The notes beneath the pieces are model-generated. The model saw nothing but the letters and a program-made list of their open reading frames with translations, was not told the DNA's origin and made no database searches. This document shows positions 1,561 to 43,643 of a stretch of DNA of 52,077 nt, one piece after another. The stretch comes from a virus. The stretch's first letter is position 1. The number at the start of each line of letters is the position of its first letter. The stretch lies in the IMG/VR virus record IMGVR_UViG_3300013772_000008, positions 1-52,077 of that record; one strand, written 5' to 3'. Both the position numbers and the translations under genes were made by a program.

Positions 1561-2289
1561 ATGGGTCGGATATGTTTGCCCGCATGCATCTGCACTGTCT
1601 GCGGGCAAAGCTTTCATCAACAGAGCCATACGTCCGGCGCCTACTGCAGCCGCGCATGCTATGAACGAATGCGTACTGACTTTCCGGCGCGTTTCTGGGA
1701 CAAGGTCAATCGCGGCGCTGCTAACGCTTGTTGGCCATGGACCGCGTGCTGCTTTCCCAATGGCTACGGGCAGATCTGCAGCAAGGGGAAAGCTAGAGGG
1801 GCACATCGCGTTGCTTGGGAACTGACATACGGGACGATCCCGTCCAACATGAGCGTCTGCCATACGTGTGATAACCGACGATGTGTCAACCCTGGGCATC
1901 TGTTTCTGGGAACTACGACAGAGAATATGCAAGATGCCGCCGTCAAAGGCCGAACGCTTGCTGGAGATCGGCACTGGAGCCGCCGCATGCCGGAGCGGCT
2001 TGCGCGAGGAGACGCGCATCCTTCGCGAGTGCATCCTGAGCGGGTGGCCCGCGGACTGCAATCCGGTGTCCATACCCATCCCGAGCGTTACCCGCGCGGA
2101 GAGGCCAAGCCCAACACGAAGTTGACTAACGTACAGGTAATCGAGATGCGCCATGAGCGGCAGGCAGGAATGACCCTCAAGGCCCTCGCCCACCGCTATG
2201 GCGTCGGCATCTCTACCATACATCGCATCGTGACCGGTCAAACGTGGCAATCTATTACGTCTCCGGCTATCAGGACATCTGTACCGTAA
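1561..2289 (+). CDS. HNH homing-type endonuclease, cassette 1
   Basis: 242 residues, ATG preceded by AGGAAGGTG. An N-terminal Cys-rich zinc-binding segment (residues 9-33, CxxC and CxxxC) is followed by an HNH_3-type core: AHR at 81-83, [19 protein letters not shown] at about 99-117. A linker with HPER-V/Y repeats (residues 140-170) leads to a C-terminal helix-turn-helix (about 178-225: [20 protein letters not shown]) that would read the target DNA. It is on the opposite strand to its neighbours and overlaps the last 20 bases of the tail gene it faces. With its own promoter and a duplicated target 3' end on its far side, it fits a self-contained homing cassette. Nuclease activity is inferred from the family. 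Confidence 0.88.
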
Positions 2290-9448: not shown

Positions 9449-9598
9449 TCACGGCCTGTGTGCGTGGCCCAGCACGTAGAAGATCAGCCACGCACCGAGA
9501 CACAGGATTCCCAGCACGACCAGGACCGTCACCAGTGTCGCAAACGAGATTCCAACATCACTCCCCGTTGCTGCTAACAGAATCGCTAACCCGATCAT
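9449..9598 (-). CDS. Membrane microprotein, 49 residues, two spans
   Basis: ATG at 9598 with an excellent AAAGGAG seven bases upstream. MIGLAILLAATGSD is a short hydrophobic head and TLVTVLVVLGILCLGAWLIF a clear membrane helix, ending GHAHRP. The layout resembles small class II/III holins. With the neighbouring membrane genes it may belong to the lysis set. Confidence 0.6.
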   Translation of the reverse strand: MIGLAILLAATGSDVGISFATLVTVLVVLGILCLGAWLIFYVLGHAHRP

Positions 9599-14350: not shown

Positions 14351-14359
14351 TGGTAAAAT
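14351..14359 (+). promoter_or_regulatory. Extended -10 promoter of cassette 2 (HNH)
   Basis: TGGTAAAAT, i.e. TG-n-TAAAAT, 69 bases upstream of the ATG at 14429; no clear -35. Same class as the promoters at 1521, 20264 and 40483. Confidence 0.5.
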
Positions 14360-14373
14360 AGAGGCGTGAAAGT

Positions 14374-14402
14374 GCCGCGGCGGTACGTGAATACCCCGCG
14401 GC
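14374..14402 (+). promoter_or_regulatory. Leader hairpin of the HNH gene
   Basis: GCCGCGG (14374-14380) and CCGCGGC (14396-14402) form a perfect 7-bp stem with a 15-base loop in the untranslated leader, ending 26 bases before the start codon. It could slow elongation or affect initiation. Confidence 0.4.
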
Positions 14403-14428
14403 GTGGCAACAGAAGCTGGAGGCTTCCG

Positions 14429-15334
14429 ATGCGTCTTAAGTCTACATCCCCCCGTCTTTGCTCGATTCCCGATTGCAGGCGTGTGCATAAAGGCTACGGC
14501 CTCTGTTCCCCTCATCTGCAACGTCAAAAGTACGCCGATAGGACTGGCACTTACCGCCAATGCTCCATTGCCGGTTGTGCTCGGACGCATCTCGCGGTCG
14601 GGTATTGCAGAATCCACTACGGACGATGGAAGGCAACTGGCGATCCGCTGCTTACGCGGTTGGAGGCACGACCGCCCCGACTGTGCATAGTCACGGGATG
14701 TGGCAAGCCGCGTCCTGGCAGACTGTATTGCGATATGCACTACGACCGTGTACGGAAGTACGGGGATATCAACTGTGCCCGCGATCCGAAGCGCCCGCGA
14801 CGCGAACGAAGGAAGCCGATCACCGCTGCTGAGTTGCTTGCTAAGTATCCCGTCGAAAATGTCTACCGCCCGCCGGAGGTCGCGGACCGATTCTGGTCGC
14901 ACGTCCAGCGCGGCGGTCCGGATGAATGCTGGGAATGGCAGGGCTTTCGGAATCGTCTCGGCTACGGCAGCGCGTGGTTGGGCATCCCGCACCGCCCAAT
15001 CAATGCCCAACGGGCCGCGTGGATTCTGACGTACGGTGACATTCCCTCGCCGCGCGTGCACGTCTGCCACCACTGCGACAACCCGCCATGCTGTAATCCG
15101 GCGCACCTGTTTCTTGGTAGCCACGCAGAAAACGCCCGAGATATGGCGAGCAAGGGACGTATGCCCTACAGAGTCGCCCTGACGATTGAGCAGGCAGAGC
15201 AAGTGCGGGCACGCTACGCGGTGGGCGATATCACGCAACGTGAACTCGCCCTCCAATTCGGCGTTTGCCAGATGACGATCCACATGGCTGTGAGATGTAA
15301 AGGCTCGTATGCGCTGCGGACCCGGATAATGTAG
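14429..15334 (+). CDS. HNH homing-type endonuclease with zinc-finger array, cassette 2
   Basis: 301 residues from ATG 14429, which has GGAGG seven bases upstream; the earlier GTG at 14366 lies in the leader hairpin region and lacks a ribosome site. Three C-x4/5-C-x9-C-x2-H fingers (residues 11-29, 45-63, 86-104) precede an HNH_3 core: CWEWQGFRNRLGYG (168-180) and VCHHCDNPPCCNPAHLFLG (212-230). In place of the AHR of its relatives it has AQR (193-195). A C-terminal HTH (about 255-290, ITQRELALQFGVCQMTIHMA) should recognise DNA. It is convergent with the tape measure gene, whose stop lies six bases away. Family assignment is firm, homing is inferred. Confidence 0.87.
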   Translation: MRLKSTSPRLCSIPDCRRVHKGYGLCSPHLQRQKYADRTGTYRQCSIAGCARTHLAVGYCRIHYGRWKATGDPLLTRLEARPPRLCIVTGCGKPRPGRLYCDMHYDRVRKYGDINCARDPKRPRRERRKPITAAELLAKYPVENVYRPPEVADRFWSHVQRGGPDECWEWQGFRNRLGYGSAWLGIPHRPINAQRAAWILTYGDIPSPRVHVCHHCDNPPCCNPAHLFLGSHAENARDMASKGRMPYRVALTIEQAEQVRARYAVGDITQRELALQFGVCQMTIHMAVRCKGSYALRTRIM

Positions 15335-15339
15335 GTAGG

Positions 15340-18300
15340 TCATATTAAACCAACCTGAAGCCGTAGCTCCTGAGTCAAGCCCCGCACGGCAGCACGGGCC
15401 AGCGCCTCATCGGTGGTCAGTGGGCGATTCTGAAGCGCGATTATCGCGTCGATTATCTTCTTGTAGGCGTCCAGTTGCGCCTTCACGCCGTCGGCAGCCC
15501 TCTGTGCATCCGCCGCCTGCGCCTGAGAGCGCGCGATTTCAGCAGATTGCATCCGGCTCTTTTCGGTATCCCCGACGTACTGCCCCGTGGTAGGGTCGGT
15601 CCACTGAGCGGCGGCCGCAGCCACTTTCGTCTGCTGCTCGGTCTGTTGGGCCCAGAACCGTTGCCTTGCTGCTTCATCGGAGAAGCCGTAGCTCTCTGGG
15701 CCGCCGCCTGTGTCGGCCCCCATTCTCTCCTCAAGCGGGGTGTTGATGTACCACAGCTTCCCCGAGCTGTCTTCGACCGCCGTGTGACGACCGGAGCCGC
15801 CCACATATTTGAGCCCGCTGGGAGCAGCGGCCCCGCCACCGCCGGCGCCACCGGCTGCTGCAGCAACGGATTCGTGCGCCGCTATCTGCGTGGTCGCGCT
15901 CGCTTGTGCATTCTGCCCCATTTGGGCTTCTGCACGTTGATTCGCGTTCAACATGTCGTCCAAGGTCCGTAGATAGTCCTCAAGTATGCTTCGGTTGATA
16001 CCCGAGAGTGTGGGATCTGCAAGCTGTCTGTGGACCGCTGCAATAGCCGCACTCAATTGCGAGTCTGCCGCTATGTAGGCCGGTAGCTGCGCCGCGGCGG
16101 CTGCGTAGTTATCCCGCTGCTGCTGGGTAAGCGACATATTGTTAGCTTGTATTTGGAAGTCGGCGATTCTATTAGCACTGGAAATGCGTAGATGTTCCGT
16201 CGCGTCCCATCCAGCGTTGTATGCGGTGATATCGGTCTGCGTTGTTGCTGCGTCCGTTACTGCGAGCGCCGTGAGTCCCGTCGATCGGTTCTGTGCCGCT
16301 GTAAGCCGCGCCTGAGCCGCGGCTACACCAGATGCGGCGTCGGCGATATCGATAGCGCTGGCGTGCGCCAGGTTCGCGTCATCGAGAGCACCTTGCGCCG
16401 TGTTCAGGTCCCTCTGTGCTTCAAGTACGTCATGATTCGCGTTGAGCGCCGCCTGTTTGCTAAGGTTCGCCGTACTTACGTCGCTCGCGAGTGTCTGGGT
16501 GTTGACCTCTCTATGCGCGGCGACCACACCGATGCCAGCGATCCGCGCCGTGTCCGCGCCTTCTCTCACGAGCGCCTGCTGCCCGGACGCCTCGTGTTCC
16601 GCCTGGGTCGTCCTCAGTGCCGAGTCGCCCGTGAATGACGTTGTAGCGTCGTGCCAGGCAGCGACAGCCGCATTAGCTGCATGAGTCGTGCTGTTAACGA
16701 CCAACTGGTCTTGTCTAATCGTCTCAGCGCTGACGCCGTTCGGATCGTTCAGGTCAGCGAGCAACTTGGCTTCGGCGCCACTGGCGTCGCCGAGACGTGC
16801 CTGTGCGGTGTCGAAGGCGCTTTTAACGGTTTCGCTGTCCGCCGCCGTGTAGGCACCGGTCAGCGTTGTGATCTGACCCTGTATCGTGTTGAGCGCCGTC
16901 GTTGCGGATTCGCTAAGCGCCGCGATCTGATCGGGCGTGAGGGGTTTATCGCCTGCTACCGGCTTCTCCTGCGCGGGCAACACCGGAGGGCCGCCGCCGC
17001 TGCCGCCGGCAGCCGCGTCCCCCCCGCTGGCATCTGGGGCCCCGCCCTCGGTGGCACCGCGCCCCGGTGCAGTGCCTACCCCGGGGCCAGCGTTGCCGCT
17101 CAACGTAGTACCAGCGGCCCTCCACGCTGCACTGAAGTCACCACGCCTCACGCGGGTATCATCTACGCTCCCGTTTGGCCGCTCCATCGCGATTTCCATC
17201 GCGTGCGCGCCAGCCTCTCCGCCGCCAGCCGCTTGATATGCCCGAATACCCGCTTGTAGATCGCCACTAGCTGCGAAGGCATCGAGACTGCCGCTAGCGG
17301 TCGTAACGTTGAACCCCGCAGCCTCCGCTGTCGCCCTTGTGCCGCCTGAGAACTGGAACGGATTGCCGGATGTACCGCCAGGGTCTTCATAATTCGATAC
17401 GGTGAGTAGCGCTCGCGCCAGCGTACCGGGGTCAACGCCGAAACGAGCCGCATTAGCAGCTGCCCAGCCAGCAATGTCACCCGCATTACCGGATAGGCCA
17501 GCGGGCATAGAACCACTGCCAGCACTCGACGAGCCAGTGCCCCACACCGTCTCCGGGTCCACGATCACGCCGTTCCGCGTGGTCACAATGTGCGTATGCG
17601 GCCCCTCGCTAAGGCCGGAATTCGGGTCTCCCACGGCGCCGCCTGATAGTCCGACCGTTGCGCCCGCGGCAACTCGGTCACCCACGGTGAGCAGAGTAGA
17701 CGAGAGATGACCAAACGTTTCCTCCAGGCCGTTTCCGAGGTCGATAGTGATCGATAGTCCGAGCCCTGTTTGCCCCTGCCTGCCGATTGCCTTAACAACC
17801 CCGGCGCCCGCCGCGCCCAGCGTCGTACCGACCGGAATAGCGAAGTCTTCTCCTTGATGGAAATGCTGGCCGTTGATCATCGGCTCCAGCGCTTCGTCGG
17901 TGGGCCCGTACGGTTGCGAGATACTACCGGATGTCGTGGGGCGCATAAGGCCGCCGGGCCCAACACCCGGAAACGACATCCCGCCGCTGCCGGAGCCTGA
18001 CCCGAGGATGTTAGGTATCGACCCGACTTTAGCGATCGCTCCCCCGATGGCGGCCGTTACCAAATCCCACGCCCGCGCGATGGGATCGATCACCAGCTTC
18101 TGGCGAACTGCCGACGCCTCGGTGTCGGTCGCCAGCGTGCCGACCGACTTCCCTGCCGTGCCGGTCGCCGTTGTCTGGTCTTTGTACGAGCCCTCAACCT
18201 TGCCACTAGAGAGACCGAGCAACCGCGCCCGCTCGGTCTCGGTGAGTCCCGTCTTGCCTTCTTGGGTAGCAGTATCTGCGCTGGCCTGGGTCTTATCTTG

Positions 18301-20103
18301 TTCGACTTTTATGTTGTCCTTAAGCGCCTGCTGGTGCGGTTTGAGGGCAAAGTCGATAGTCTTCTGGGCGTTTGCAAACGCGGCCCCCGATGGGTCGTAC
18401 TCGATCTGGCGATCAAGTTCGGCTTGATCGGCTGCTGTCTTCGAGGCGGCGGCGCCTGAGAGTTTGTCCTGATCGACGATGTTCTGCAGGTGAGCGATGT
18501 GCTGTTGCGAAGCATTGCCGTTCGACAGTTTGGCGTTGAACGTATCGATTTGCAGTTCTGTGGCGTGAAGCTGACGGGTAAGCTCGTTTTCCTCCGGCGA
18601 GGGGATTTTGAGCATCCCGACAATCTGCTCGTGGGCCTTGGCTATCTCCGGGAGAAGGCCCGAGTCCAGCTCCTGGGTGATGGTGTCGATCATCGATTGG
18701 ACGTTGCCGCTGGACGAGGCGGTATTCCACGCATCGTCAAGCTTCTTAACGTTATCGGCGGCTACTCGATAAGCCTCGGAATTTTCGGTGGTCGTCTCCT
18801 TAGCGTGCTTCAGGCTGTAATCGAACTGCGGAAAGACATCAAGCAGGCTCTGGACTTTCGTGTCGAAGCCTTCCACCTCGACCGCAGACGCCTTTGCCTG
18901 ATTGCCCATCAGCCCGAAGGTAGCACCCAGTTGGTCAACAAGCGGCCCAGCGACTGCGGCTGTCTTGCCCACCGTATCGATGTTCGTGGCAGCGAAGGCG
19001 AGCGGACCGGTGGCATTGGTAACGGCACTAGCAGCGCCGTCGGTATTATCCTTCACTTTGCCTAACTGATCCGCTGCGCCGGACCAGTCCAACTTGGCGG
19101 CGTCCCAAGCCCCCGCCGATAGGTGCAAGGCATCGGTTAGGAGGTGAAACTTATCATTCGCATCCTGCGCCTTTGTAATCGTCTCCTGGATCGGCGCGGG
19201 GAGCAAATGAAAGATGCCCAGCAAGTCCCTGACGTGCTGCTCGGCGCTGAGCACTTCCCTCGACAATCCGGTGATCGCGTTGATGACCGGCCCGCCGACC
19301 ACGACCTCAAAGCCCTGCATGGCGAGCGTTAGATCTGCCATCGACTTGTGGTAAGCCAGAACGCTTTTTTCGGTTACTCCGATGCTGGCTCCGGACGCGT
19401 CGATTGCCGCCTTAGCCTCATTCGTGGCGGCGCTGCCCTGATTCAAAATCGGGATTAGGTTTGCTCCGGACCGTCCAAAGAGGTCCATCGCGATCTGCGT
19501 TTTATTCAGAGAATCGCTAGCGTTCCGAAAAGCGTCAGCTACCGCAGCAAGCTGCTGGTCGGGGTTGAGCTTCAGAAACGTCCCGAGGTCGATTCCAAGC
19601 TTTTCAAGATCGAGCGCCATCTTGCCTGTAGGAGCCGAACCTCTGTCGATCTGATCAGCTAGCGTGCCTACGTTGCGCTCGAAGATTTGAAGCGCACGCC
19701 CAGAAGCGTCGGCGCTCTGCCCGATCGTCTCAAACTGGTAGCCAAGCGCTTGGACGGTTGGGATGCTTAGGCCGGTCTGCTCCGCCGTCTCGCGTACTCG
19801 ATCGGCAAGCCCGATAAGCGCATTCGCCGCACCAGCAGCCAAGGCGACCAGTGCCACACCTAGTAACGCCGCTCCTGCCTCAGCGGTTTCAGCGCCGCGG
19901 GCAAAGTCGAGTAACTCGGCCCTAGCTTGGCTGAAGCCCCCGGCAAGGTGTCCGGTCGCGAAATCGAGCCCCGCAACGATGCCGGTTAGATTGGTAGCTT
20001 CGACCGCTACGCTACGAGCTGCCTGGGCGTGCTCGGACGCCGCAGTGGCTGCCCCGCGGTGACTCTCAGCCCCGCGCCCGGCCGCGCCGGAAAGCGCATC
20101 CAC
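15340..20103 (-). CDS. Tape measure protein with M23 peptidase domain
   Basis: 1587 residues as annotated from GTG 20103. The N-terminal half is helical with a hydrophobic stretch near 75-98 (AGAALLGVALVALAAGAANA), typical of tape measure proteins that set tail length. Residues 735-860 are an M23 (lysostaphin-type) domain: HFHQGEDFAIP, FGHLSS and HTHI provide the zinc ligands His, Asp and His-x-His. A second globular part (870-1000, PNPFQFSGGTRATAEAAGF-like) may be a transglycosylase-like segment. The rest is helix-rich Ala/Gln sequence. The coding signal continues upstream of 20103 to about 20246 without a usable in-frame start (see findings), so the true N-terminus is uncertain. The 3' end abuts HNH cassette 2. 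Confidence 0.9.
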   Translation of the reverse strand: MDALSGAAGRGAESHRGAATAASEHAQAARSVAVEATNLTGIVAGLDFATGHLAGGFSQARAELLDFARGAETAEAGAALLGVALVALAAGAANALIGLADRVRETAEQTGLSIPTVQALGYQFETIGQSADASGRALQIFERNVGTLADQIDRGSAPTGKMALDLEKLGIDLGTFLKLNPDQQLAAVADAFRNASDSLNKTQIAMDLFGRSGANLIPILNQGSAATNEAKAAIDASGASIGVTEKSVLAYHKSMADLTLAMQGFEVVVGGPVINAITGLSREVLSAEQHVRDLLGIFHLLPAPIQETITKAQDANDKFHLLTDALHLSAGAWDAAKLDWSGAADQLGKVKDNTDGAASAVTNATGPLAFAATNIDTVGKTAAVAGPLVDQLGATFGLMGNQAKASAVEVEGFDTKVQSLLDVFPQFDYSLKHAKETTTENSEAYRVAADNVKKLDDAWNTASSSGNVQSMIDTITQELDSGLLPEIAKAHEQIVGMLKIPSPEENELTRQLHATELQIDTFNAKLSNGNASQQHIAHLQNIVDQDKLSGAAASKTAADQAELDRQIEYDPSGAAFANAQKTIDFALKPHQQALKDNIKVEQDKTQASADTATQEGKTGLTETERARLLGLSSGKVEGSYKDQTTATGTAGKSVGTLATDTEASAVRQKLVIDPIARAWDLVTAAIGGAIAKVGSIPNILGSGSGSGGMSFPGVGPGGLMRPTTSGSISQPYGPTDEALEPMINGQHFHQGEDFAIPVGTTLGAAGAGVVKAIGRQGQTGLGLSITIDLGNGLEETFGHLSSTLLTVGDRVAAGATVGLSGGAVGDPNSGLSEGPHTHIVTTRNGVIVDPETVWGTGSSSAGSGSMPAGLSGNAGDIAGWAAANAARFGVDPGTLARALLTVSNYEDPGGTSGNPFQFSGGTRATAEAAGFNVTTASGSLDAFAASGDLQAGIRAYQAAGGGEAGAHAMEIAMERPNGSVDDTRVRRGDFSAAWRAAGTTLSGNAGPGVGTAPGRGATEGGAPDASGGDAAAGGSGGGPPVLPAQEKPVAGDKPLTPDQIAALSESATTALNTIQGQITTLTGAYTAADSETVKSAFDTAQARLGDASGAEAKLLADLNDPNGVSAETIRQDQLVVNSTTHAANAAVAAWHDATTSFTGDSALRTTQAEHEASGQQALVREGADTARIAGIGVVAAHREVNTQTLASDVSTANLSKQAALNANHDVLEAQRDLNTAQGALDDANLAHASAIDIADAASGVAAAQARLTAAQNRSTGLTALAVTDAATTQTDITAYNAGWDATEHLRISSANRIADFQIQANNMSLTQQQRDNYAAAAAQLPAYIAADSQLSAAIAAVHRQLADPTLSGINRSILEDYLRTLDDMLNANQRAEAQMGQNAQASATTQIAAHESVAAAAGGAGGGGAAAPSGLKYVGGSGRHTAVEDSSGKLWYINTPLEERMGADTGGGPESYGFSDEAARQRFWAQQTEQQTKVAAAAAQWTDPTTGQYVGDTEKSRMQSAEIARSQAQAADAQRAADGVKAQLDAYKKIIDAIIALQNRPLTTDEALARAAVRGLTQELRLQVGLI

Positions 20104-20256
20104 TGCGCCGCTGGCGGGAGTTGCGGACGCCGGAATGGAATCGAGCGCTTCCCGATAGGCGGCGAGTTGGTCGCGCCCGGTGTCTGCTCCGGTGGTCTCT
20201 AAAGCTACTGCAAGCGTTGCTGCCTCGATGGCCGTGGCATTTAGCCTTTCGCTACA

Positions 20257-20268
20257 TCAGGCGTGATA
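20257..20268 (-). pseudogene. Possible 12-base remnant of the tail chaperone 3' end
   Basis: Leftward TAT-CAC-GCC-TGA (Tyr-His-Ala-stop) matches the chaperone end TAT-CAC-GGG-TGA at 20464-20475 in ten of twelve bases. It lies between the plus-strand membrane gene and the tape measure start, exactly where a displaced chaperone end would be expected. Too short to prove homology by itself. Confidence 0.35.
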
Positions 20269-20272
20269 CGAT
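20264..20272 (+). promoter_or_regulatory. Extended -10 promoter of cassette 3
   Basis: TGATACGAT (TG-n-TACGAT) 20 bases upstream of the ATG at 20293. Same class as the other cassette promoters. Confidence 0.45.
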
Positions 20273-20292
20273 CCACACGAAAGAGGTGCATC

Positions 20293-20454
20293 ATGTGGAT
20301 TGACTTCGATGTGAAGGTGCTCCAAGGAGCTGACTGGCTTACCGGCACGTTAGGGACGCGTGATCGGCTACTGGCGGGATTAGTTCTGCTCGTTGCGAGC
20401 TTGTTATTTGGTCTTTGCATGGAGTCCCTGCTCTTAACCGGCCGCCGCTCCTAG
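20293..20454 (+). CDS. Small single-span membrane protein, cassette 3
   Basis: 53 residues, ATG at 20293 with AAAGAGGTG upstream. Residues 1-30 are polar (MWIDFDVKVLQGADWLTGTL), residues 31-48 form a membrane helix (LLAGLVLLVASLLFGLCM), and the end is basic (LLLTGRRS). It is antisense within the tail operon, between the chaperone and tape measure genes, and its stop lies nine bases from the chaperone stop. The layout copies that of the HNH cassettes, but the product has no nuclease features. A lysogenic-conversion or exclusion peptide is a reasonable guess. Confidence 0.6.
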   Translation: MWIDFDVKVLQGADWLTGTLGTRDRLLAGLVLLVASLLFGLCMESLLLTGRRS

Positions 20455-20463
20455 GCCTCTCCA

Positions 20464-21077
20464 TCACCCGTGATATTTCCTGTTCATCGTGTCCGCCCAG
20501 TTCTGGTCCTTAATGCTCTCGTTCGTGGCGCCGTTCTCGGCCATCAGTGCCGCCTCATACCGGCTCTGCCAGTACGGCGACAGCTCCTGGTCGAACGCCT
20601 GAGCGGTCACGCCCGCTCGTTCGGCGACTTTAATCCGCCAGTACCAGCCGGCTAGTCGGCCCTCTCGACCTCCGGTGTGAAGCCATTTTTGGAGGGCTTC
20701 ACGCTCAAAAAATCCGGCGCTACGTCCTCCTGAATTGCGTTCAGCACCCGAACGAGAAACCGATCCGGTTCCTGCACCAGCCGCTTAGCGGTGATCGCGA
20801 TCGCCTTGCCACCATCCAGGTAATCCCACTCGGTCACCAACGCCACCAGGCTCTCCGCGTGAGCCAGCTTGTATTGCTGCGCCTTGGCTTCCATATCTGG
20901 CACGCCGCTGCCTTCAGCGGGCGGCGCCTCAATCTCGATGTACCGCTGGAGCCGGTGACGGGTGATCGCGTCCTGATCCATCGCCCGATAGCGGATGTTC
21001 AGCACGTCGTCCACGCCGGCGAACGTGATCGCTAATGGCCGGGTATAGTTGCGAATCGCGCTGACTTGCAGCGGCAT
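20464..21077 (-). CDS. Tail assembly chaperone, -1 frameshift (GT-like) form
   Basis: A second frame overlaps the end of the chaperone and is open to TGA 20464. After a -1 shift at the slippery heptamer (20706-20712) translation continues EREALQKWLHTGGREGRLAG and then a helical, Trp/Tyr-rich tail ending MNRKYHG. The downstream frame has no start of its own. This is the classical gpG/gpGT arrangement; the fused product would be about 204 residues. Shift efficiency cannot be judged from sequence. Confidence 0.8.
20652..21077 (-). CDS. Tail assembly chaperone, upstream (G-like) form
   Basis: 141 residues from ATG 21077 with GGAGG four bases upstream. Located between the tail tube gene and the tape measure gene, the fixed place of tail assembly chaperones in siphoviruses. 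The sequence is mostly helical with acidic and basic patches (RNYTRPLAITFAGVDDVLNI; DFLSVKPSKNGFTPEVERAD). It would bind tail tube and tape measure proteins during tail assembly and not remain in the virion. Ends at TAG 20652. Confidence 0.85.
   Translation of the reverse strand: MPLQVSAIRNYTRPLAITFAGVDDVLNIRYRAMDQDAITRHRLQRYIEIEAPPAEGSGVPDMEAKAQQYKLAHAESLVALVTEWDYLDGGKAIAITAKRLVQEPDRFLVRVLNAIQEDVAPDFLSVKPSKNGFTPEVERAD
20706..20712 (-). promoter_or_regulatory. Slippery heptamer T-TTT-TTG for -1 frameshift
   Basis: In the chaperone frame the codons are GAT-TTT-TTG, giving X-XXY-YYZ with X=Y=T. The -1 frame is open from here through the TAG of the zero frame to 20464. Runs of six T are otherwise rare in this GC-rich sequence. 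Confidence 0.75.
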
Positions 21078-22608: not shown

Positions 22609-23037
22609 TCACGTTGTCTGCGCTACTATGTCGTACCGGAAACCGAGGTGCGTAAAGACGACTCCCGAGACTGGTGGATCGTCTCTCCTCACGGGGCTCC
22701 TGCCGCTACACGATTCAAGCGTGCCGCCGGTGATGGCCTGCGTCGGCGCTGCATGCAGTAACGCATCGATCCTATTGGCGATAGGCACCAATCCTGCATA
22801 GTTCTGCATCTTGTCGATGCCCACCACTTCGTAATCCAGTTGCTCCCACAGCTTGCTAGCGCCTACCACGAGCTTGAGCGTACCGGCCATAAAGCTGAAC
22901 ACCACAAACGGATAGGTCGCGCCTTCCGGCGCCAAGCGATTGAACACGCCACCCGGAGCCAGCGCCATCAAGGTCGTATCACCCGATAGCTTGCCGTACA
23001 TCCAGGCTTCCACCACCGGCGTCGCGATAGCCGTCAT
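22609..23037 (-). CDS. Tail terminator or completion protein
   Basis: 142 residues. The N-terminal segment MTAIATPVVEAWMYGKLSGD and PFVVFSFM near 43-50 follow the pattern of the small 'minor capsid / tail completion' proteins that cap the tail tube (vALxayLa...lg.....P.yP.vvf). It sits between the gp10-like gene and the tail tube gene as expected. ATG overlaps the stop of the gp10-like gene. Confidence 0.65.
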   Translation of the reverse strand: MTAIATPVVEAWMYGKLSGDTTLMALAPGGVFNRLAPEGATYPFVVFSFMAGTLKLVVGASKLWEQLDYEVVGIDKMQNYAGLVPIANRIDALLHAAPTQAITGGTLESCSGRSPVRRDDPPVSGVVFTHLGFRYDIVAQTT

Positions 23038-24865: not shown

Positions 24866-25843
24866 TCAGACCGTTGCGATCACAAATCCATTGGGATGGT
24901 ATAATACAGGTCCGCCGTTGTGCCCGTCCTGTATGATTATCTGCCTCGGTACTTCGTTGGGGTCATCGTCAACCTTGGTGTACGGTCCAGGCGCGAGCCC
25001 CGCGTTGTTGGCGTTGCGCGTAATCCGGTACTCCGCCAGCGGGTCGCCGGTGGAGCGCCGTCCGACAACCACGACCTTGTTGTTCGGAATCCACAACTGG
25101 AACGTTCCCGTGCTGTCGTAGTAGCCCTGGTCATAGACGACGATGTTGGCAAGCCCGTCCTGTGTGATGAGTTGGTTAATCTGGTCCGGGCTGTTCAGCG
25201 TTGAGAGGCCCGCAGCACGCCGGCCACCAAGGTCCGCCGCGTTCGTGTTGCTGAGCAACGAATTCAGCGTCGTCTGGTTCATGTACGCCTTGGCGCCGGC
25301 ACCGAAACTCAAGCTATAGCCGCGAGCCTTGAGCGCAATGGCCCGGAGGTCGGCCAGCGGCGTTGCCGTCGCCACCGTCGCCCACGGCACGCCCGCTGAG
25401 AATGTCTGCGTGGTGTAGGAGTCGGTATGCAGCACGCTGGTCCCGTCGGCCACGCTGAATGTGCCGGTCTCCAGCAGGGTCCAGCCGATGTAGCGCAACC
25501 GGTTCAGTCGCCGCTGCAGCAGCACGTCCTGGCCCTCACGAACGAGGTCAGTGATGCTGATGGCCCCAACAAACGTGCCCCACGGGCGACGAGCGGTCAA
25601 AGACATCTCGTCAATCGTGTAGAACTCGCCGTACACGCCGGGTTGCATCTGGTAGCGTTTGCCGCCGATTGGCTTGACGCGCGACGGCTCGCCGTTGAGC
25701 CCGCGTACGCCTTGCAACCCGAGGAAATTATCCTGCTGTTCCCATTCGAGCAGGTGAGCGTCCACGTTGCGGATGGGCATGATGTCCGCCAACATTGGGT
25801 CGCCGAGGACTAACTGCGGCATCATCTCCTGTTCGATCTGCAT
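24866..25843 (-). CDS. Major capsid protein (capsid E type)
   Basis: 325 residues from ATG 25843. The pattern (MADIMPIRNVDAHLLEWEQQ; YQMQPGVYGEFYTIDE; LDEMSLTARR region; FSVADGTSVLHTDSYTTQTF; KAYMNQTTLNSLL) matches phage capsid proteins of the E family (HK97 fold). It follows a decoration protein gene. The frame is open for 15 further codons upstream (GTAIADFTFPSAIEL) to a TAG, with no ATG, GTG or TTG; these residues read like a natural capsid N-terminus, so an unusual start or base error near 25879 is possible. Confidence 0.87.
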   Translation of the reverse strand: MQIEQEMMPQLVLGDPMLADIMPIRNVDAHLLEWEQQDNFLGLQGVRGLNGEPSRVKPIGGKRYQMQPGVYGEFYTIDEMSLTARRPWGTFVGAISITDLVREGQDVLLQRRLNRLRYIGWTLLETGTFSVADGTSVLHTDSYTTQTFSAGVPWATVATATPLADLRAIALKARGYSLSFGAGAKAYMNQTTLNSLLSNTNAADLGGRRAAGLSTLNSPDQINQLITQDGLANIVVYDQGYYDSTGTFQLWIPNNKVVVVGRRSTGDPLAEYRITRNANNAGLAPGPYTKVDDDPNEVPRQIIIQDGHNGGPVLYHPNGFVIATV

Positions 25844-38960: not shown

Positions 38961-40409
38961 TCACAGGTCTACTCCTGCCCGCTCGGCGAGCACTCGGAAC
39001 GCGAACGCGGCGCACTGCGGCACGACGGCGTTGCCGAGCGCTCGGAGCTGGTCAACGCGATATCGGGGTTCGCCCAGTCCGGATGCAGCCCCATCAGCCA
39101 GGCCACGAAGCGAGGATTGAGGCGTGCCGCCGGAGTCGGCTTCGGCACCATATATTCCAGACTCGTTGGATATGTCTTGCCCTTGACCTTGCTTGACGTG
39201 CCGGGTTCCACTCGCGGTGTTGGCCAGAGCCGGCGCGAGTTCGGGCCAGCGTTCGAGGACGGCAGCCCATCCGGCGGCATCGCTTGGGCGTGGTGGGAAA
39301 GGTCCGATGCTCGCCGCCTGCCCGCGCTCGGCTTGTAGCCGTCCACCGCTTTCGGCGTCGCCCATCGTGGCGCTTGCCTTCCGAGTAGCCCGTTCGTCGG
39401 TGCGTTCTCCGATGGGCTCGTGCCGTCCTTGTGGTCGCGTGATGTCGGCGTCGCCCACGCCGCCGCTTCGCCCGCTAGCACCCGCCCGTGCGTCGTGCCG
39501 TGCGATGGCGCTGGCTTTGTGGTCCGGTTCTCGCTCATGCTGCTGCGTGGCGTCGACCAGAGTTTCGCCACGTTCTCTAGGCCGATCTGCCGCTTCTTGC
39601 CGTCCGGAGTCATGCCCGTGGGCGACGTTCCCGGCGTATTGATCCGTCCGCCGTTTGGAACGTTCGGCGTAGGCCAGAGTTGTGTTCTGAGGTCCGGACC
39701 GCAGTCTCCATGTCCCCCCGATCCATTCGTGATCGCACTGCGTGCCGTAGAGTAGCGCGTCGCTGCATCCCGTCGCCCTGGATCTTCCGCTATCGCCCCG
39801 AGATGCCGCGCTGCCCGCGATTGCATCCACCACGGCCGACCGTCGTCCTTCCACGGAGCTGTCTGCGATGTCCCAAGGGCCGCCGTTGCGGTAGGCCAAT
39901 ATGAAGACTCGTTCTCGTAGCTGTGATGCGCCGACTTCCGCCGCCGTGAAACAGCCCCATTCCGCAGCGAACCCCATTTCGGCCAGGTCACTGAGGACGA
40001 GTTCCAGTCCTCCCCCAGTAATGAGCCCTGGGACGTTTTCCAGGAACACGAACCGCGGTCGAACGTCGCGAATGATTCCCGCGATGGCCGGCCAGAGCCA
40101 GCGCTCGTCTGCGGTTCCGGCTCGCTTGCCAGCGACGGACCACGGCTGACAGGGGAAGCCTGCCAGGACGATATCCACGACGCCACGCCACGGTCGGCCG
40201 TTAAAGCTGTACAAGTCATCCCAGATAGGAAACGCATCCAAGGAGCCGTCTTGCTGACGCGCGACCAGGACCGCGGCAGCAAAGACTTCGATCTCAACTG
40301 CACAGACAGTCCGGTAGGCATCTCCGAGGGCCAGCTTGAGCCCGAGGTCAAGTCCGCCAATACCAGCGCAGAGTGAGAGCCCACGGATGGGATGTACAGC
40401 CACATTCAC
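38961..40409 (-). CDS. C5-cytosine DNA methyltransferase
   Basis: 482 residues from GTG 40409, which overlaps the stop of the displaced HTH-gene fragment (GTGA) and has GGAG five bases upstream; the open frame beyond it is the antisense of the HNH gene. Motif I GLSLCAGIGGLDLGL (10-24), motif IV GFPCQPWS with the catalytic Cys87, motif VI LENVPG (123-128), motif VIII QLRERV (163-168), and motif X GNAVVP near 457. The target-recognition region between VIII and X is about 250 residues, long, Arg/Gly rich. It makes 5-methylcytosine; the site read is unknown. Its ribosome site lies in the fragment at 40406-40471. Confidence 0.92.
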   Translation of the reverse strand: MNVAVHPIRGLSLCAGIGGLDLGLKLALGDAYRTVCAVEIEVFAAAVLVARQQDGSLDAFPIWDDLYSFNGRPWRGVVDIVLAGFPCQPWSVAGKRAGTADERWLWPAIAGIIRDVRPRFVFLENVPGLITGGGLELVLSDLAEMGFAAEWGCFTAAEVGASQLRERVFILAYRNGGPWDIADSSVEGRRSAVVDAIAGSAASRGDSGRSRATGCSDALLYGTQCDHEWIGGTWRLRSGPQNTTLAYAERSKRRTDQYAGNVAHGHDSGRQEAADRPRERGETLVDATQQHEREPDHKASAIARHDARAGASGRSGGVGDADITRPQGRHEPIGERTDERATRKASATMGDAESGGRLQAERGQAASIGPFPPRPSDAAGWAAVLERWPELAPALANTASGTRHVKQGQGQDISNESGIYGAEADSGGTPQSSLRGLADGAASGLGEPRYRVDQLRALGNAVVPQCAAFAFRVLAERAGVDL

Positions 40410-40471
40410 TGCGTCTCCGTGTACGCTGCCAGCGCCGCGCGGACGTGTCCCGAGGTTGTGCCGAACTTGGC
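40406..40471 (-). pseudogene. Displaced original 3' end of the LuxR-type HTH gene
   Basis: Leftward this reads AKFGTTSGHVRAALAAYTET-Q-stop. The intact gene at 41170 ends AAKFGTRSGQIRRALQHEAK and on. In the shared part KFGTxSGx(I/V)RxAL nearly every third codon position differs (TTC/TTT, GGC/GGG, ACA/ACG, TCG/TCA, CGC/CGG, CTG/CTT), so both copies evolved under selection as coding sequence. The fragment lacks a start, ends in the native GTGA coupling with the methyltransferase gene, and is cut 12 bases from the HNH promoter. Confidence 0.82.
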
Positions 40472-40482
40472 GGGAGAAAAAC

Positions 40483-40491
40483 TGGTATAAT
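40483..40491 (+). promoter_or_regulatory. Extended -10 promoter of cassette 4 (HNH)
   Basis: TGGTATAAT: TG, one base, and a perfect TATAAT, 58 bases before the ATG at 40550. No convincing -35 box. Confidence 0.6.
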
Positions 40492-40495
40492 AAGA

Positions 40496-40525
40496 GCGAG
40501 GCGCGTGCTTGTGACACGCCCTCGC
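40496..40525 (+). promoter_or_regulatory. Leader hairpin of the cassette 4 HNH gene
   Basis: GCGAGG-c-GCGTG (40496-40507) pairs with CACGC-CCTCGC (40515-40525) around loop CTTGTGA, an 11-bp stem with one bulge. It begins five bases after the -10, so the transcript would start with this structure; it could stabilise the 5' end or attenuate expression. Confidence 0.5.
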
Positions 40526-40549
40526 CCCGACACCGAAGAGGTGACTTCG

Positions 40550-41158
40550 ATGCGCCCTCAGTGTATCTGTTCCAACTGTGGTCTGAGTAAGCCCCATCAC
40601 GCTCGGGGGATCTGCAAGGCTTGCTATGACCGCGCCCGCCTTGTCGCCCATCCCGATGCTCGCCGCGATTATTTCGCCGCCTACCGTGCGACCCATCCAG
40701 ACGAACGACGGGCCTATTACGTCGCTCATCGCCAGGAGGTGTGTGCCCGAAGCACAGCTCGCCGTGTCGCTCTGCGCGATGAAGCGTTGGCTTATGGCGT
40801 CGCTTATTACGCGCGGCATCGCGCGGAGTTTGCCGCATACTCTGCGGCGCATCGGGGGGAAGAGCGCGCTCGTCGTGCTGCACATCCTGAGATAGGCCGA
40901 GAACAACGCCACCGACGCAGGGCCAGCCTTCGTGTGGCTTTCGTCGCACCCGTCTATTTTCTGGACATTTGGGAACGTGACAAAGCCGTCTGCGGTATCT
41001 GTCATAAGCGAGTGCCCCGGAAGCTTGCGAGCTTGGACCACATTCTGCCCATAGCCTGCGGCGGCACTCATGAACCCCGAAATGTGCGCTTGGCGCATCG
41101 CCGGTGCAACTTCAAGCGCCAGCATCGCGGCGCTGCCCAACTGCGGTTGATTGGCTAG
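40550..41158 (+). CDS. HNH endonuclease with tandem-helix linker, cassette 4
   Basis: 202 residues from ATG 40550 with AGAGGTG upstream; the earlier frame to 40373 is antisense to other coding sequence. An N-terminal Cys cluster (CICSNCG...CKACYDRAR, 5-30) is followed by four or five short repeats of the type (Y)YxAHRxE (40-115) and a C-terminal HNH core: CGICHKRVPRKLASLDHILP and GGTHEPRNVRLAHRRCN (about 148-190). This differs from the HNH_3 type of the other four nucleases. Convergent with the LuxR-type HTH gene, whose stop is 11 bases away. Confidence 0.88.
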   Translation: MRPQCICSNCGLSKPHHARGICKACYDRARLVAHPDARRDYFAAYRATHPDERRAYYVAHRQEVCARSTARRVALRDEALAYGVAYYARHRAEFAAYSAAHRGEERARRAAHPEIGREQRHRRRASLRVAFVAPVYFLDIWERDKAVCGICHKRVPRKLASLDHILPIACGGTHEPRNVRLAHRRCNFKRQHRGAAQLRLIG

Positions 41159-41169
41159 CATTGGCGCGG

Positions 41170-41409
41170 TCATAACTTTGCCCTCTTGGCTTCGTGCTGA
41201 AGTGCCCGCCGGATTTGTCCTGACCTCGTCCCAAACTTCGCAGCGATGCTCATCACGTACTGCCGAACGGTGGTCACCTTCACGCCCATGCTGCGAGCGA
41301 TCGTGCCGGTGGATTCGCCCTGCCAGAGCAGTTCGAGTACGCGCTTCTCACGCTCGGCTAGCTCCGGCGGGTGCGTGAGTGCGCTGGTCCGATCGCGGTA
41401 CGTCGTCAT
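41170..41409 (-). CDS. LuxR-type HTH DNA-binding protein, 79 residues
   Basis: ATG overlaps the stop of the zinc-ribbon gene (ATGA). Residues 19-66 form a LuxR/GerE-type helix-turn-helix: REKRVLELLWQGESTGTIAR, then VKVTTVRQYVMSIAAKFGTR. No regulatory domain is attached. It probably controls a phage or host promoter. The last 22 residues (after KFGT, 58-61) come with HNH cassette 4; the original end lies at 40406-40471. Confidence 0.8.
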   Translation of the reverse strand: MTTYRDRTSALTHPPELAEREKRVLELLWQGESTGTIARSMGVKVTTVRQYVMSIAAKFGTRSGQIRRALQHEAKRAKL

Positions 41410-41998: not shown

Positions 41999-42314
41999 AG
42001 TCGTAATCTTCTCCGAGCCAAATCCCGTACACGTCCACACGGTCGGTGTCGGCTTCAAACCACCAGGCGGCGCCGGTGTCCTCGCACGTCAGCGTCAAGC
42101 CGGCGTTGACCAGGTGGACCGTCTGCCCGAGGTGCGTCACCGAACACGCCGCCGTGCGGCCCGCCGTGACGGTCGTGCCGGTAGCCGTTGTGCAGCACTG
42201 AAAATAGCTCGTTACCCTCGTGTATCCGTCTGCTCGTGCTTTCGGCGCCGGGAGGGCAGCGGCAATCGAAAGCATCACCGCTGCGCCAACCCCCAGCGCC
42301 TTGCGCCGCGTCAA
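41982..42314 (-). CDS. Exported protein with Tat-type signal peptide, 110 residues
   Basis: TTG 42314 overlaps the stop of the HNH gene (TTGA) with GGAGG five bases upstream. LTRRKALGVGAAVMLSIAAA followed by LPAPKARA is a twin-arginine-like signal with AxA cleavage. The mature part (about 80 residues) has four Cys and aromatic-rich end (WWFEADTDRVDVYGIWLGED). It should be secreted by the host. Function unknown; an envelope-acting or exclusion factor is possible. Confidence 0.65.
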   Translation of the reverse strand: MTRRKALGVGAAVMLSIAAALPAPKARADGYTRVTSYFQCCTTATGTTVTAGRTAACSVTHLGQTVHLVNAGLTLTCEDTGAAWWFEADTDRVDVYGIWLGEDYDYVWFE

Positions 42315-42898
42315 ACGTGCCTCCAAGTCTTGCCATGAATCACGTTATAAATGGCCGTAGGACCCACGCCGAACGCATTGGCTATCTGTTTCTGAAACTC
42401 TCCTTTCGCTACGCGACTCCGAATCTCGCGTACCGCACCCTCGGTAAGTTTTGATGAAACGTGATTTTCACCGCGTGGTAACCGCTCGGGGTGTAAGTGA
42501 TTACCGCTGTTATTGCCGCGTGGTCGTCGTTCAGGATGCGTGCGACTACCATGTCGCTCTCCGCGTGCTAGGCACTCGGGGTGTAGGCGACTACCGCTTC
42601 TATTTCCGGTAGCGGATCGTCCCTTCGCGGTCATATCGCGATTGTTGTCGGCGACGGTTCCCAGAAACAGATGATTCGGTCGCACGCATGGCGGGTTGTC
42701 GCAGTGGTGGCAAACGCAGAAACCGGAAGGGATGGGGCCGAATGTCAACGTCCAAGCAATTCGGTGCGTCCCGGTCTTGCGGCCGGTTCTACCGTCTCGG
42801 GCCTGCCCATAACCGCCGGTGGCTTTGCCGCCCTGCCATTCCCAACAATCGGCCGAGCGTTTGACCTTAGTCCAGAAGTTGGCAGTTGTGTCGGTCAT
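42311..42898 (-). CDS. HNH homing-type endonuclease, co-directional copy 1
   Basis: 195 residues from ATG 42898 in a TGATG overlap. HNH_3 core: DCWEWQGGKATGGYG (near 17-31), THRIAW (44-49), VCHHCDNPPCVRPNHLFLG (near 62-80). Then three HPER-type repeats (SGSRLHPECLARGERHG, SRTHPERRPRG, NHLHPERLPRG) and a C-terminal HTH (KLTEGAVREIRSR... IANAFGVGPTAIYNVI). It sits in the leftward operon with tight overlaps on both sides and has no own promoter. Confidence 0.88.
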   Translation of the reverse strand: MTDTTANFWTKVKRSADCWEWQGGKATGGYGQARDGRTGRKTGTHRIAWTLTFGPIPSGFCVCHHCDNPPCVRPNHLFLGTVADNNRDMTAKGRSATGNRSGSRLHPECLARGERHGSRTHPERRPRGNNSGNHLHPERLPRGENHVSSKLTEGAVREIRSRVAKGEFQKQIANAFGVGPTAIYNVIHGKTWRHV

Positions 42899-43137
42899 CA
42901 GACCTGCACCGCGCGGTCTGTCCGGTACTTCGACGGCACTAGCAACGTCGGCATCTCGCGCGCCGCCGTATTGGCGCACTTCGTCGAACAGTAAAGTCCA
43001 CTGACCGCGCAGTGTGCCCAGCCGGCGCGACCGATGCGCTGCCCACAGAGTTTGCAGACGGCCCATTGCGCGGCGGCGGCTGATAGCGGGATGCGACGTA
43101 ACGATTGGGGGTGGGCATCTTGGTATGAAGTGGTCAT
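42898..43137 (-). CDS. Zinc-finger protein, 79 residues
   Basis: ATG 43137 overlaps the stop of the HNH gene upstream (ATGA) and has AAAGGA before it. CKLCGQRIGRAGWAHCAVSG and LYCSTKCANTA form a zinc ribbon of the same kind as the microproteins at 6118-6607. It is placed between two HNH genes. Function unknown. Confidence 0.6.
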   Translation of the reverse strand: MTTSYQDAHPQSLRRIPLSAAAAQWAVCKLCGQRIGRAGWAHCAVSGLYCSTKCANTAAREMPTLLVPSKYRTDRAVQV

Positions 43138-43643
43138 GCTGTCATCCTTTCGACGGGCTGTACGTGCCCCCACGACTTGCCGTCGCGAATAAACCCGACC
43201 GCTCTGCGCGAGACGCTGTAGCGCCGGGCCAAATCGCCCATACTTACGAAGCCGAATGAAGACTTCATTTCGGCGACTTGCTGGGCCGTGAGTTTGGCGG
43301 CCCCGTTGCGTTCGCCGCGTGCTAGCCGGTCGGGGTGGGTGCGCGCTCCGTTGCGCTCACCGAGAGCGCCGCGACCCTTTAAGGCCGAGTCACGATTGTT
43401 ATCCGCCCGTGTACCGATGAAAAGATGGCCCGGTCGGCAGCACGGGGGGTTATCGCATCTGTGAAGTACGCATAGGCCAGGTGGTATGGGCCCACGGGCC
43501 AATTCCCAAGCAAGCCTGTGAGCCTTCACATGTTTTCCACCCCAGTGTGACTGGCCATATCCCTTCGACGTTCGGCTCGCCTGCCATTCCCAGCAAACCG
43601 GCCCACATTCAACATTCGCCCAAAAGGCCGCGGACGTGTTCAT
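43134..43643 (-). CDS. HNH homing-type endonuclease, co-directional copy 2
   Basis: 169 residues, ATG overlapping the stop of the ATPase gene (ATGA). VCWEWQASRTSKGYG (16-30), AHRLAWELARGPIPPGLCVL and HRCDNPPCCRPGHLFIG (about 61-77), one HPDR repeat, then a C-terminal HTH (KLTAQQVAEMKSS; ARRYSVSRRAVGFIRDGKSW). Closest in build to the nucleases at 42311 and 1561. It breaks the ATPase-zinc-finger pair without disturbing either frame. Confidence 0.88.
   Translation of the reverse strand: MNTSAAFWANVECGPVCWEWQASRTSKGYGQSHWGGKHVKAHRLAWELARGPIPPGLCVLHRCDNPPCCRPGHLFIGTRADNNRDSALKGRGALGERNGARTHPDRLARGERNGAAKLTAQQVAEMKSSFGFVSMGDLARRYSVSRRAVGFIRDGKSWGHVQPVERMTA

Follow-up and report, generated by a model that had tools for sequence, protein, structure and literature searches.

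The window, that is, the whole stretch of 52,077 bases analysed here (a virus record with 62% G+C), has its genes for terminase, Mu-like portal, capsid and tail on the minus strand, and its plus strand encodes an integrase together with an HTH_3 regulator, which indicates that the phage is probably temperate. Antisense within this minus-strand late operon, a plus-strand ORF of 53 aa (Table 1) occupies the space separating the second tail chaperone frame from the gene for the tape measure protein (TMP). The chaperone frames match no family above cut-off in Pfam or PHROGs, and their assignment is therefore based on position and on the presence of two overlapping frames; the M23 peptidase domain of the TMP is recognised by Pfam. 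As stated in the first-pass annotation, nine bases (20455-20463) separate the TAG of the ORF from the stop of the facing chaperone.

Table 1 Features at the chaperone-TMP junction, embedded HNH genes of the window, and opposite-strand inserts before TMP genes elsewhere (positions refer to the window)
Feature	Position	Strand	Basis or remark
Tail chaperone, first frame	20652-21077	-	identity by position
Tail chaperone, second (frameshift-type) frame	20464-20691	-	identity by position; stop TGA 20466-20464
Chaperone end, one repeat copy	20459-20475		sequence; stop TGA overlapping ATG (TGATG)
Gene for a small single-pass membrane protein of 53 aa, candidate moron	20293-20454	+	ORF, predicted hydrophobic stretch
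Shine-Dalgarno AAAGAGGTG of the 53-aa gene	20280-20288	+	sequence
Extended -10 promoter-like site TGATACGAT	20264-20272	+	motif match
Degenerate copy of chaperone end, 17 nt	20252-20268		sequence match
ACG, proposed non-canonical TMP start	20233-20235	-	Shine-Dalgarno GAAAGG at 20250-20245; analogy with Firecracker
TMP, M23 peptidase domain	15340-20235	-	read from ACG at 20235-20233
HNH_3 gene facing TMP stop, same layout	14429-15334	+	Pfam
HNH_3 gene, same layout	1561-2289	+	Pfam; end 20 bases into facing ORF
HNH gene, same layout	40550-41158	+	Pfam; antisense to minus ORF 40406-41173
L132 insert, Opitutaceae assembly		opposite	49-aa one-helix ORF; only convincing case among 111
L148 insert		opposite	59 aa, hydrophobic; ATG preceded by AGGAGG; stops of insert and upstream gene one base apart
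L193 insert		opposite	56 aa, hydrophobic; in 600-nt gap, not abutting neighbours
L144 insert		opposite	Zeta_toxin (Pfam)
L154 insert		opposite	RelB (Pfam), PIN-like neighbour by eye
L185 insert		opposite	CcdA with CcdB (Pfam); CcdB stop overlaps upstream gene
L214 insert		opposite	FitA-like with PIN (Pfam)

The length of the ORF is ordinary, with ORFs of at least 50 aa arising in 1099 of 5000 dinucleotide shuffles of the gap, but an ORF that also encodes a 19-residue stretch with a Kyte-Doolittle value of at least 2.4 arises in a single shuffle of 5000, and one that has a Shine-Dalgarno sequence as well in none of 5000. The plus-strand gene proposed in the first-pass annotation thus gains support from the ORF and its hydrophobic stretch taken together. 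Its translation (MWIDFDVKVLQGADWLTGTLGTRDRLLAGLVLLVASLLFGLCMESLLLTGRRS) is predicted, from hydrophobicity, to be a membrane protein with a C-terminal hydrophobic stretch, and this hydrophobicity is matched by two of the 272 window ORFs of 40-80 aa, itself included. Pfam finds neither an HNH nor any other domain in the protein, which bears out the earlier suggestion of a non-nuclease gene, its membrane character being a prediction, and sets the gene apart from a free-standing homing endonuclease element. As a side observation, the highest hydrophobicity among the 40-80-aa ORFs of the window belongs to a 49-codon ORF at 9449-9598 (minus strand), possibly a holin-type protein.

The plain codon score of the ORF is weak (equalled by 29 of 130 ORFs of 45-65 aa), and the codon-based gene map of the window leaves it out; its own frame is preferred, with a score of -5.8 versus -29.5 and -24.0 in the other two forward frames, and the mirror frame on the opposite strand reaches a marginally better value (-2.9) but is interrupted by stop codons. 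The base composition of the stretch differs from that of its neighbours (55% versus 62% G+C) and falls within the lowest 5.1% of 185-nt window stretches. We regard it as quite unlikely that the 220 nt hold no gene and are instead a non-coding spacer, a leader or an antisense RNA with a chance ORF. The ordinary length and weak codon score would fit such a reading, as would the lack of homologues, of a -35 element and of a terminator directly behind the ORF; it is countered by the joint rarity of ORF and hydrophobic stretch, the frame preference, the promoter motif and Shine-Dalgarno sequence in place before the ORF, and the ordinary folding of the transcript (z 0.26). Highly improbable, in turn, is that the true gene is the minus-strand ORF of 59 codons at 20241-20420, serving as a late-operon spacer gene: although it runs with the operon and ends in TAA beside an off-frame ATG, its codon score is -14.5 versus -5.8 for the plus-strand ORF and its product is of low complexity.

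The extended -10 promoter claimed for the 53-aa gene is present as a motif; it has no -35, and a consensus sigma-70 scan lists no site there. Directly behind the stop of the gene, the plus-strand scan of the window finds no terminator; the two terminator-like sites on this strand (1.2 expected) lie inside the ORF (20388-20400) and 395 nt downstream. The pattern TGNTANNAT occurs seven times in the window, with 6.8 occurrences expected by chance, and five of these are on the plus strand. Four of the five are followed, at a distance of 20-69 nt, by the start codon of a plus-strand gene lying within the minus-strand block (the 53-aa gene and three HNH genes); four 80-nt stretches would be expected to hold about 0.02 sites, a comparison to be read knowing that the pattern was written with the sites at 14351 and 20264 in hand and that those at 1521 and 40483 were then found with it. 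All four genes are oriented opposite to the late genes and possess a Shine-Dalgarno sequence. Three of them end 5, 9 or 11 bases from the facing ORF, and the gene at 1561-2289 runs into it; three of the facing stops overlap an ATG (TGATG, ATGA and ATGA) and the fourth does not. Given this shared orientation, arrangement of ends, TGNTANNAT site and Shine-Dalgarno sequence in four of four genes, the phrase "same cassette layout" used in the first-pass annotation is right as a description. In one of these cases, the minus-strand ORF 40406-41173 (255 codons) is preferred by the codon map over the antisense HNH gene, whose reading is backed by Pfam, and either of the two, or both, may be real.

Several further observations concern these elements. 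Two more adjoining HNH_3 genes lie on the late strand (42311-43066 and 43134-43643). The leaders of the HNH genes starting at 14429 and 40550 (14351-14429 and 40483-40550, plus strand, from promoter to start codon) contain G+C-rich inverted repeats recognised by eye, and these could regulate translation in the manner of some T4 homing genes. A perfect extended -10 sequence, TGGTATAAT, stands at 24897-24905 (plus strand), antisense to the major capsid gene in its 3' part, with a 94-codon ORF (24920-25204, plus strand) downstream of it.

The start of the TMP gene bears on whether the 53-aa gene was inserted. The TMP frame contains no ATG, GTG or TTG for about 45 codons, from the in-frame TGA at 20259-20257 to a GTG at 20103, and it is coding-like up to about 20238 (codon score 7.7 versus -23.1 and -27.0 in the other frames); the ATG at 20240-20238 belongs to another frame. 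The purine-rich GAAAGG stands nine bases before the ACG, which is followed by codons for A-I, and the contig IMGVR_UViG_3300001538_000007 agrees with the window at every base of the TMP start, although the two may not be independent. By analogy with Cluster O mycobacteriophages, this ACG is likely to be the TMP start. Excerpts of PMC4351075 describe the tmp genes of Corndog, Firecracker and YungJamal as being without a usual start codon behind an HNH gene inserted after the chaperone, and report Corndog peptides showing that tmp is translated from a point directly behind an ACG, which occupies the site of the Dylan and Catdawg ATG; ACG initiation and ribosome bypassing are both left open by its authors. 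In the DNA that we checked, the chaperone TGA of Dylan overlaps the TMP ATG (TGATG), representing the empty site, and in Firecracker this TGATG is where the HNH gene begins, the TMP body picking up again at ACG-GCA-ATA. The window chaperone likewise ends in TGATG, and its TMP body resumes at ACG-GCC-ATC. We take the missing TMP start, seen beside the Firecracker and Dylan states, as independent evidence for an insertion of 20247-20463 at the stop/start overlap that would leave the TMP with a non-canonical start. As far as the excerpts of PMC4351075 go, the window thus resembles these phages in the junction used, in the absence of ATG, GTG or TTG from the TMP and in the ACG at the start position, and differs from them in that their insert is a codirectional HNH gene, whereas ours is an opposite-strand gene for a predicted membrane protein. 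At the Cluster O junction, eight of 30 listed phage records (31 in all, some of them double entries) match in two pieces, indicating an insert. The window TMP would then be a second, independent candidate for a TMP running without a standard start behind an insert.

The first-pass annotation had also noted a 12-base trace of the chaperone end (20257-20268) on the far side of the gene. The trace is present and longer than claimed, comprising 17 nt of which 14 match. An equally good match turns up in four of 2000 cases when the 53-nt stretch upstream is shuffled, at nine of 1394 stretches of 53 nt elsewhere in the window, in two of 3032 with the 17-mer only and, in a second set-up, in none of 1000 shuffles, figures that are optimistic because the place was chosen after the repeat had been seen. 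The repeat may record how the 53-aa insert came in. A comparable case, according to excerpts of PMC4351075, is YungJamal gene 60, an opposite-strand gene between tail genes: imperfect direct repeats matching the end of the gene upstream stand on either side of it, and relatives have a single copy. Unlike the window protein, its product is 160 aa long and non-hydrophobic; its Cys/His pattern is HNH-like by eye, with no Pfam match. As a general insertion signature, we rejected the flanking repeat: at five other opposite-strand inserts at the chaperone-TMP junction (those of L144 and L154 left out), 188 to 916 of 1000 shuffles are as good.

We compared this junction in other phages using TMP relatives (118 loci with 111 scorable junctions, duplicates kept). 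By a crude measure, the gap is at most 40 nt in 97 of the 111, and in the window it is 228 nt from the chaperone stop to the ACG. This measure takes every open stretch of 60 codons for an upstream gene and would miss inserts like that of the window, and opposite-strand ORFs were therefore listed separately. A second set from searches with PF10145 and the L132 TMP, two of which covered one and the same class of 293 genomes, added 143 loci (126 scorable, 17 skipped, duplicates kept), in which 40 rows from 32 loci pass a loose opposite-strand filter. Taken together, seven of the 237 scorable junctions hold an opposite-strand insert before the TMP that is convincing in our own judgement, three encoding small membrane proteins and four being toxin-antitoxin-type loci; the survey covers the TMP junction alone. 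In the L132 case, the stop of the ORF falls within a 10-nt overlap with the upstream gene's end, and the codon score is 14.0 versus -6.8. The remaining six (L144, L148, L154, L185, L193 and L214) come from the 126. Other rows stay uncounted because they encode no domain, score better in a plus frame or are of low complexity; examples are L033, L052, L063, L066 and L111 among the 111, and L157, L174, L178, L201, L206, L210 and L239 among the 126. In the Actinomycetota set, L254 (942-1151, opposite strand) may contain a 69-aa membrane gene with two hydrophobic stretches before the TMP, uncounted because the plus frame scores slightly higher. Complete opposite-strand pairs lie directly before the TMP in bacterial genomes, CcdAB in L282 (3024-3622 of the reversed locus) and FitA-like/PIN in L283 (3179-3918, reversed). 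Loss of the TMP start is not general, since the TMP begins with ATG in L132, L148 and L282 and with GTG in L283.

The four toxin-antitoxin-type loci among the seven convincing inserts lend some weight to the main rival of an exclusion function, namely that the 53-aa ORF encodes a small membrane toxin of a type I toxin-antitoxin or addiction-like system, and a single-helix peptide of about 50 aa would suit such a toxin. We nevertheless consider this unlikely: Rfam returns one sub-threshold chance match and no type I antitoxin, no antitoxin ORF is seen beside it, and the hydrophobic stretch is C-terminal.

The same survey weighs on the earlier proposal that the gene is cargo brought in, in trans, by the HNH endonucleases of the phage. 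The layout and promoter type common to the 53-aa gene and the three HNH genes are consistent with it, as are the HNH genes at this junction in Cluster O, the flanking degenerate repeat resembling that described for YungJamal gene 60 in the excerpts of PMC4351075, and the three of four facing stops that overlap an ATG, as if the cassettes had entered at a stop/start overlap. However, the five other inserts tested have no such repeat, no empty site of the window phage was found, the cargo at the junction includes toxin-antitoxin genes, and the layout is equally explained if this is the only tolerated place for insertion. Mobilisation in trans by the HNH proteins is thus unsupported, and we hold it to be very improbable.

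Searches of viral contigs (queried with the chaperone, TMP, tail tube, portal, a capsid alignment, the gene at 22609-23037 and the 53-aa protein) return as close relative only the near-identical IMGVR_UViG_3300001538_000007, which is identical to the window in the region, so that the 53-aa protein is seen in a single lineage (the window and this contig). The capsid alignment has no match among genome contigs, and the window DNA has two short matches among phage records, at an HNH gene, and none at the junction. In the distant relatives PFR1 and Mae-JY22, the junction is tight and holds no insert. For the 53-aa protein itself, a search of 50,697 phage records, HK97 included, yields no match up to E = 10, and Pfam, NCBIfam and PADLOC contain no homologue; the PHROGs match is weak (E 0.13).

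The closest functional parallel is offered by the moron gene 15 of HK97, whose product provides superinfection exclusion by blocking DNA entry of superinfecting phages. Like the window gene, it is a gene for a one-helix membrane protein at the chaperone-TMP junction of a temperate siphovirus; gp15 has 62 aa, and the peak hydrophobicity is 2.43 in both proteins. Unlike the window gene, which is reversed and has no terminator directly behind it, gene 15 points the same way as the tail genes and has an annotated terminator behind it, and gp15 has no sequence match to the window protein, whose role in exclusion is suggested by analogy. We count this codirectional orientation against an exclusion moron in the window, together with the rarity of the inserts (7 of 237, with L193 not abutting its neighbours). 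Genes antisense to an operon are known from noncontiguous operons, of which excerpts describe two with prophage immunity genes: phi80 tai, whose expression is lowered when Q is present (PMC11364771), and tha/ith of S. aureus 80alpha, switched by transcription (PMC11087260). The tai and tha genes lie opposite an operon of the other life phase, which the window gene would resemble; the same excerpts place tai mostly upstream of packaging genes and tha in the cI-controlled region, unlike the window gene, and no counter-defence gene was identified in the window. A position antisense to lytic genes is given as characteristic of accessory loci in the excerpted part of PMC7067206. The antiviral hotspots of P2 and P4, in the parts of PMC9122126 that describe them, similarly have a fixed place between conserved phage genes and exchangeable cargo, but belong to another phage type and place and hold 1-5 kb of cargo.

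Our preferred explanation, held with moderate confidence, is that the 53-aa ORF is a real accessory gene, a moron, inserted at the chaperone-TMP junction and expressed in the lysogen as a membrane protein that likely protects it. Both the missing TMP start codon and the tight junctions of most related phages speak for an insertion, and the insert is probably a moron placed like HK97 gene 15, in reverse. As a plausible mechanism, the gene would have entered this tightly packed junction against the direction of the late genes. In the lysogen, with the late operon silent, the extended -10 promoter would make a short transcript for the membrane protein, and after induction, late transcription running antisense through the gene would shut it off. 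As the form of protection, a block of DNA entry by superinfecting phages, as with gp15, would be our first choice by analogy.

More tentatively, and as a reading held with low confidence, the junction might serve temperate phages in general as a place where small opposite-strand lysogeny cassettes dock, their cargo being membrane proteins or toxin-antitoxin pairs. An insertion exactly at the stop/start overlap would take away the TMP start, and the TMP would survive by ACG initiation; through the reverse orientation of the cassette, late transcription would act as an automatic off-switch at induction. Each element of this reading is already known, namely morons, inserts at the chaperone-TMP junction, non-canonical TMP starts and opposite-strand immunity genes. 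In searches of an open-access library, we found no description of the junction as a recurrent site of opposite-strand toxin-antitoxin or membrane protein genes, which does not prove that there is none. The few hundred bases before the TMP gene would offer a defined, searchable place for small prophage genes active in the lysogen, which annotation pipelines easily miss. As a separate observation, an opposite-strand gene (L011:11843-12487, minus strand) of Microcystis phage Mae-JY24, a phage sharing 32-33% capsid protein identity with the window, lies stop-to-stop with a tail gene that resembles a TMP gene; by eye, the product of the opposite-strand gene contains Cys pairs and a hydrophobic stretch.
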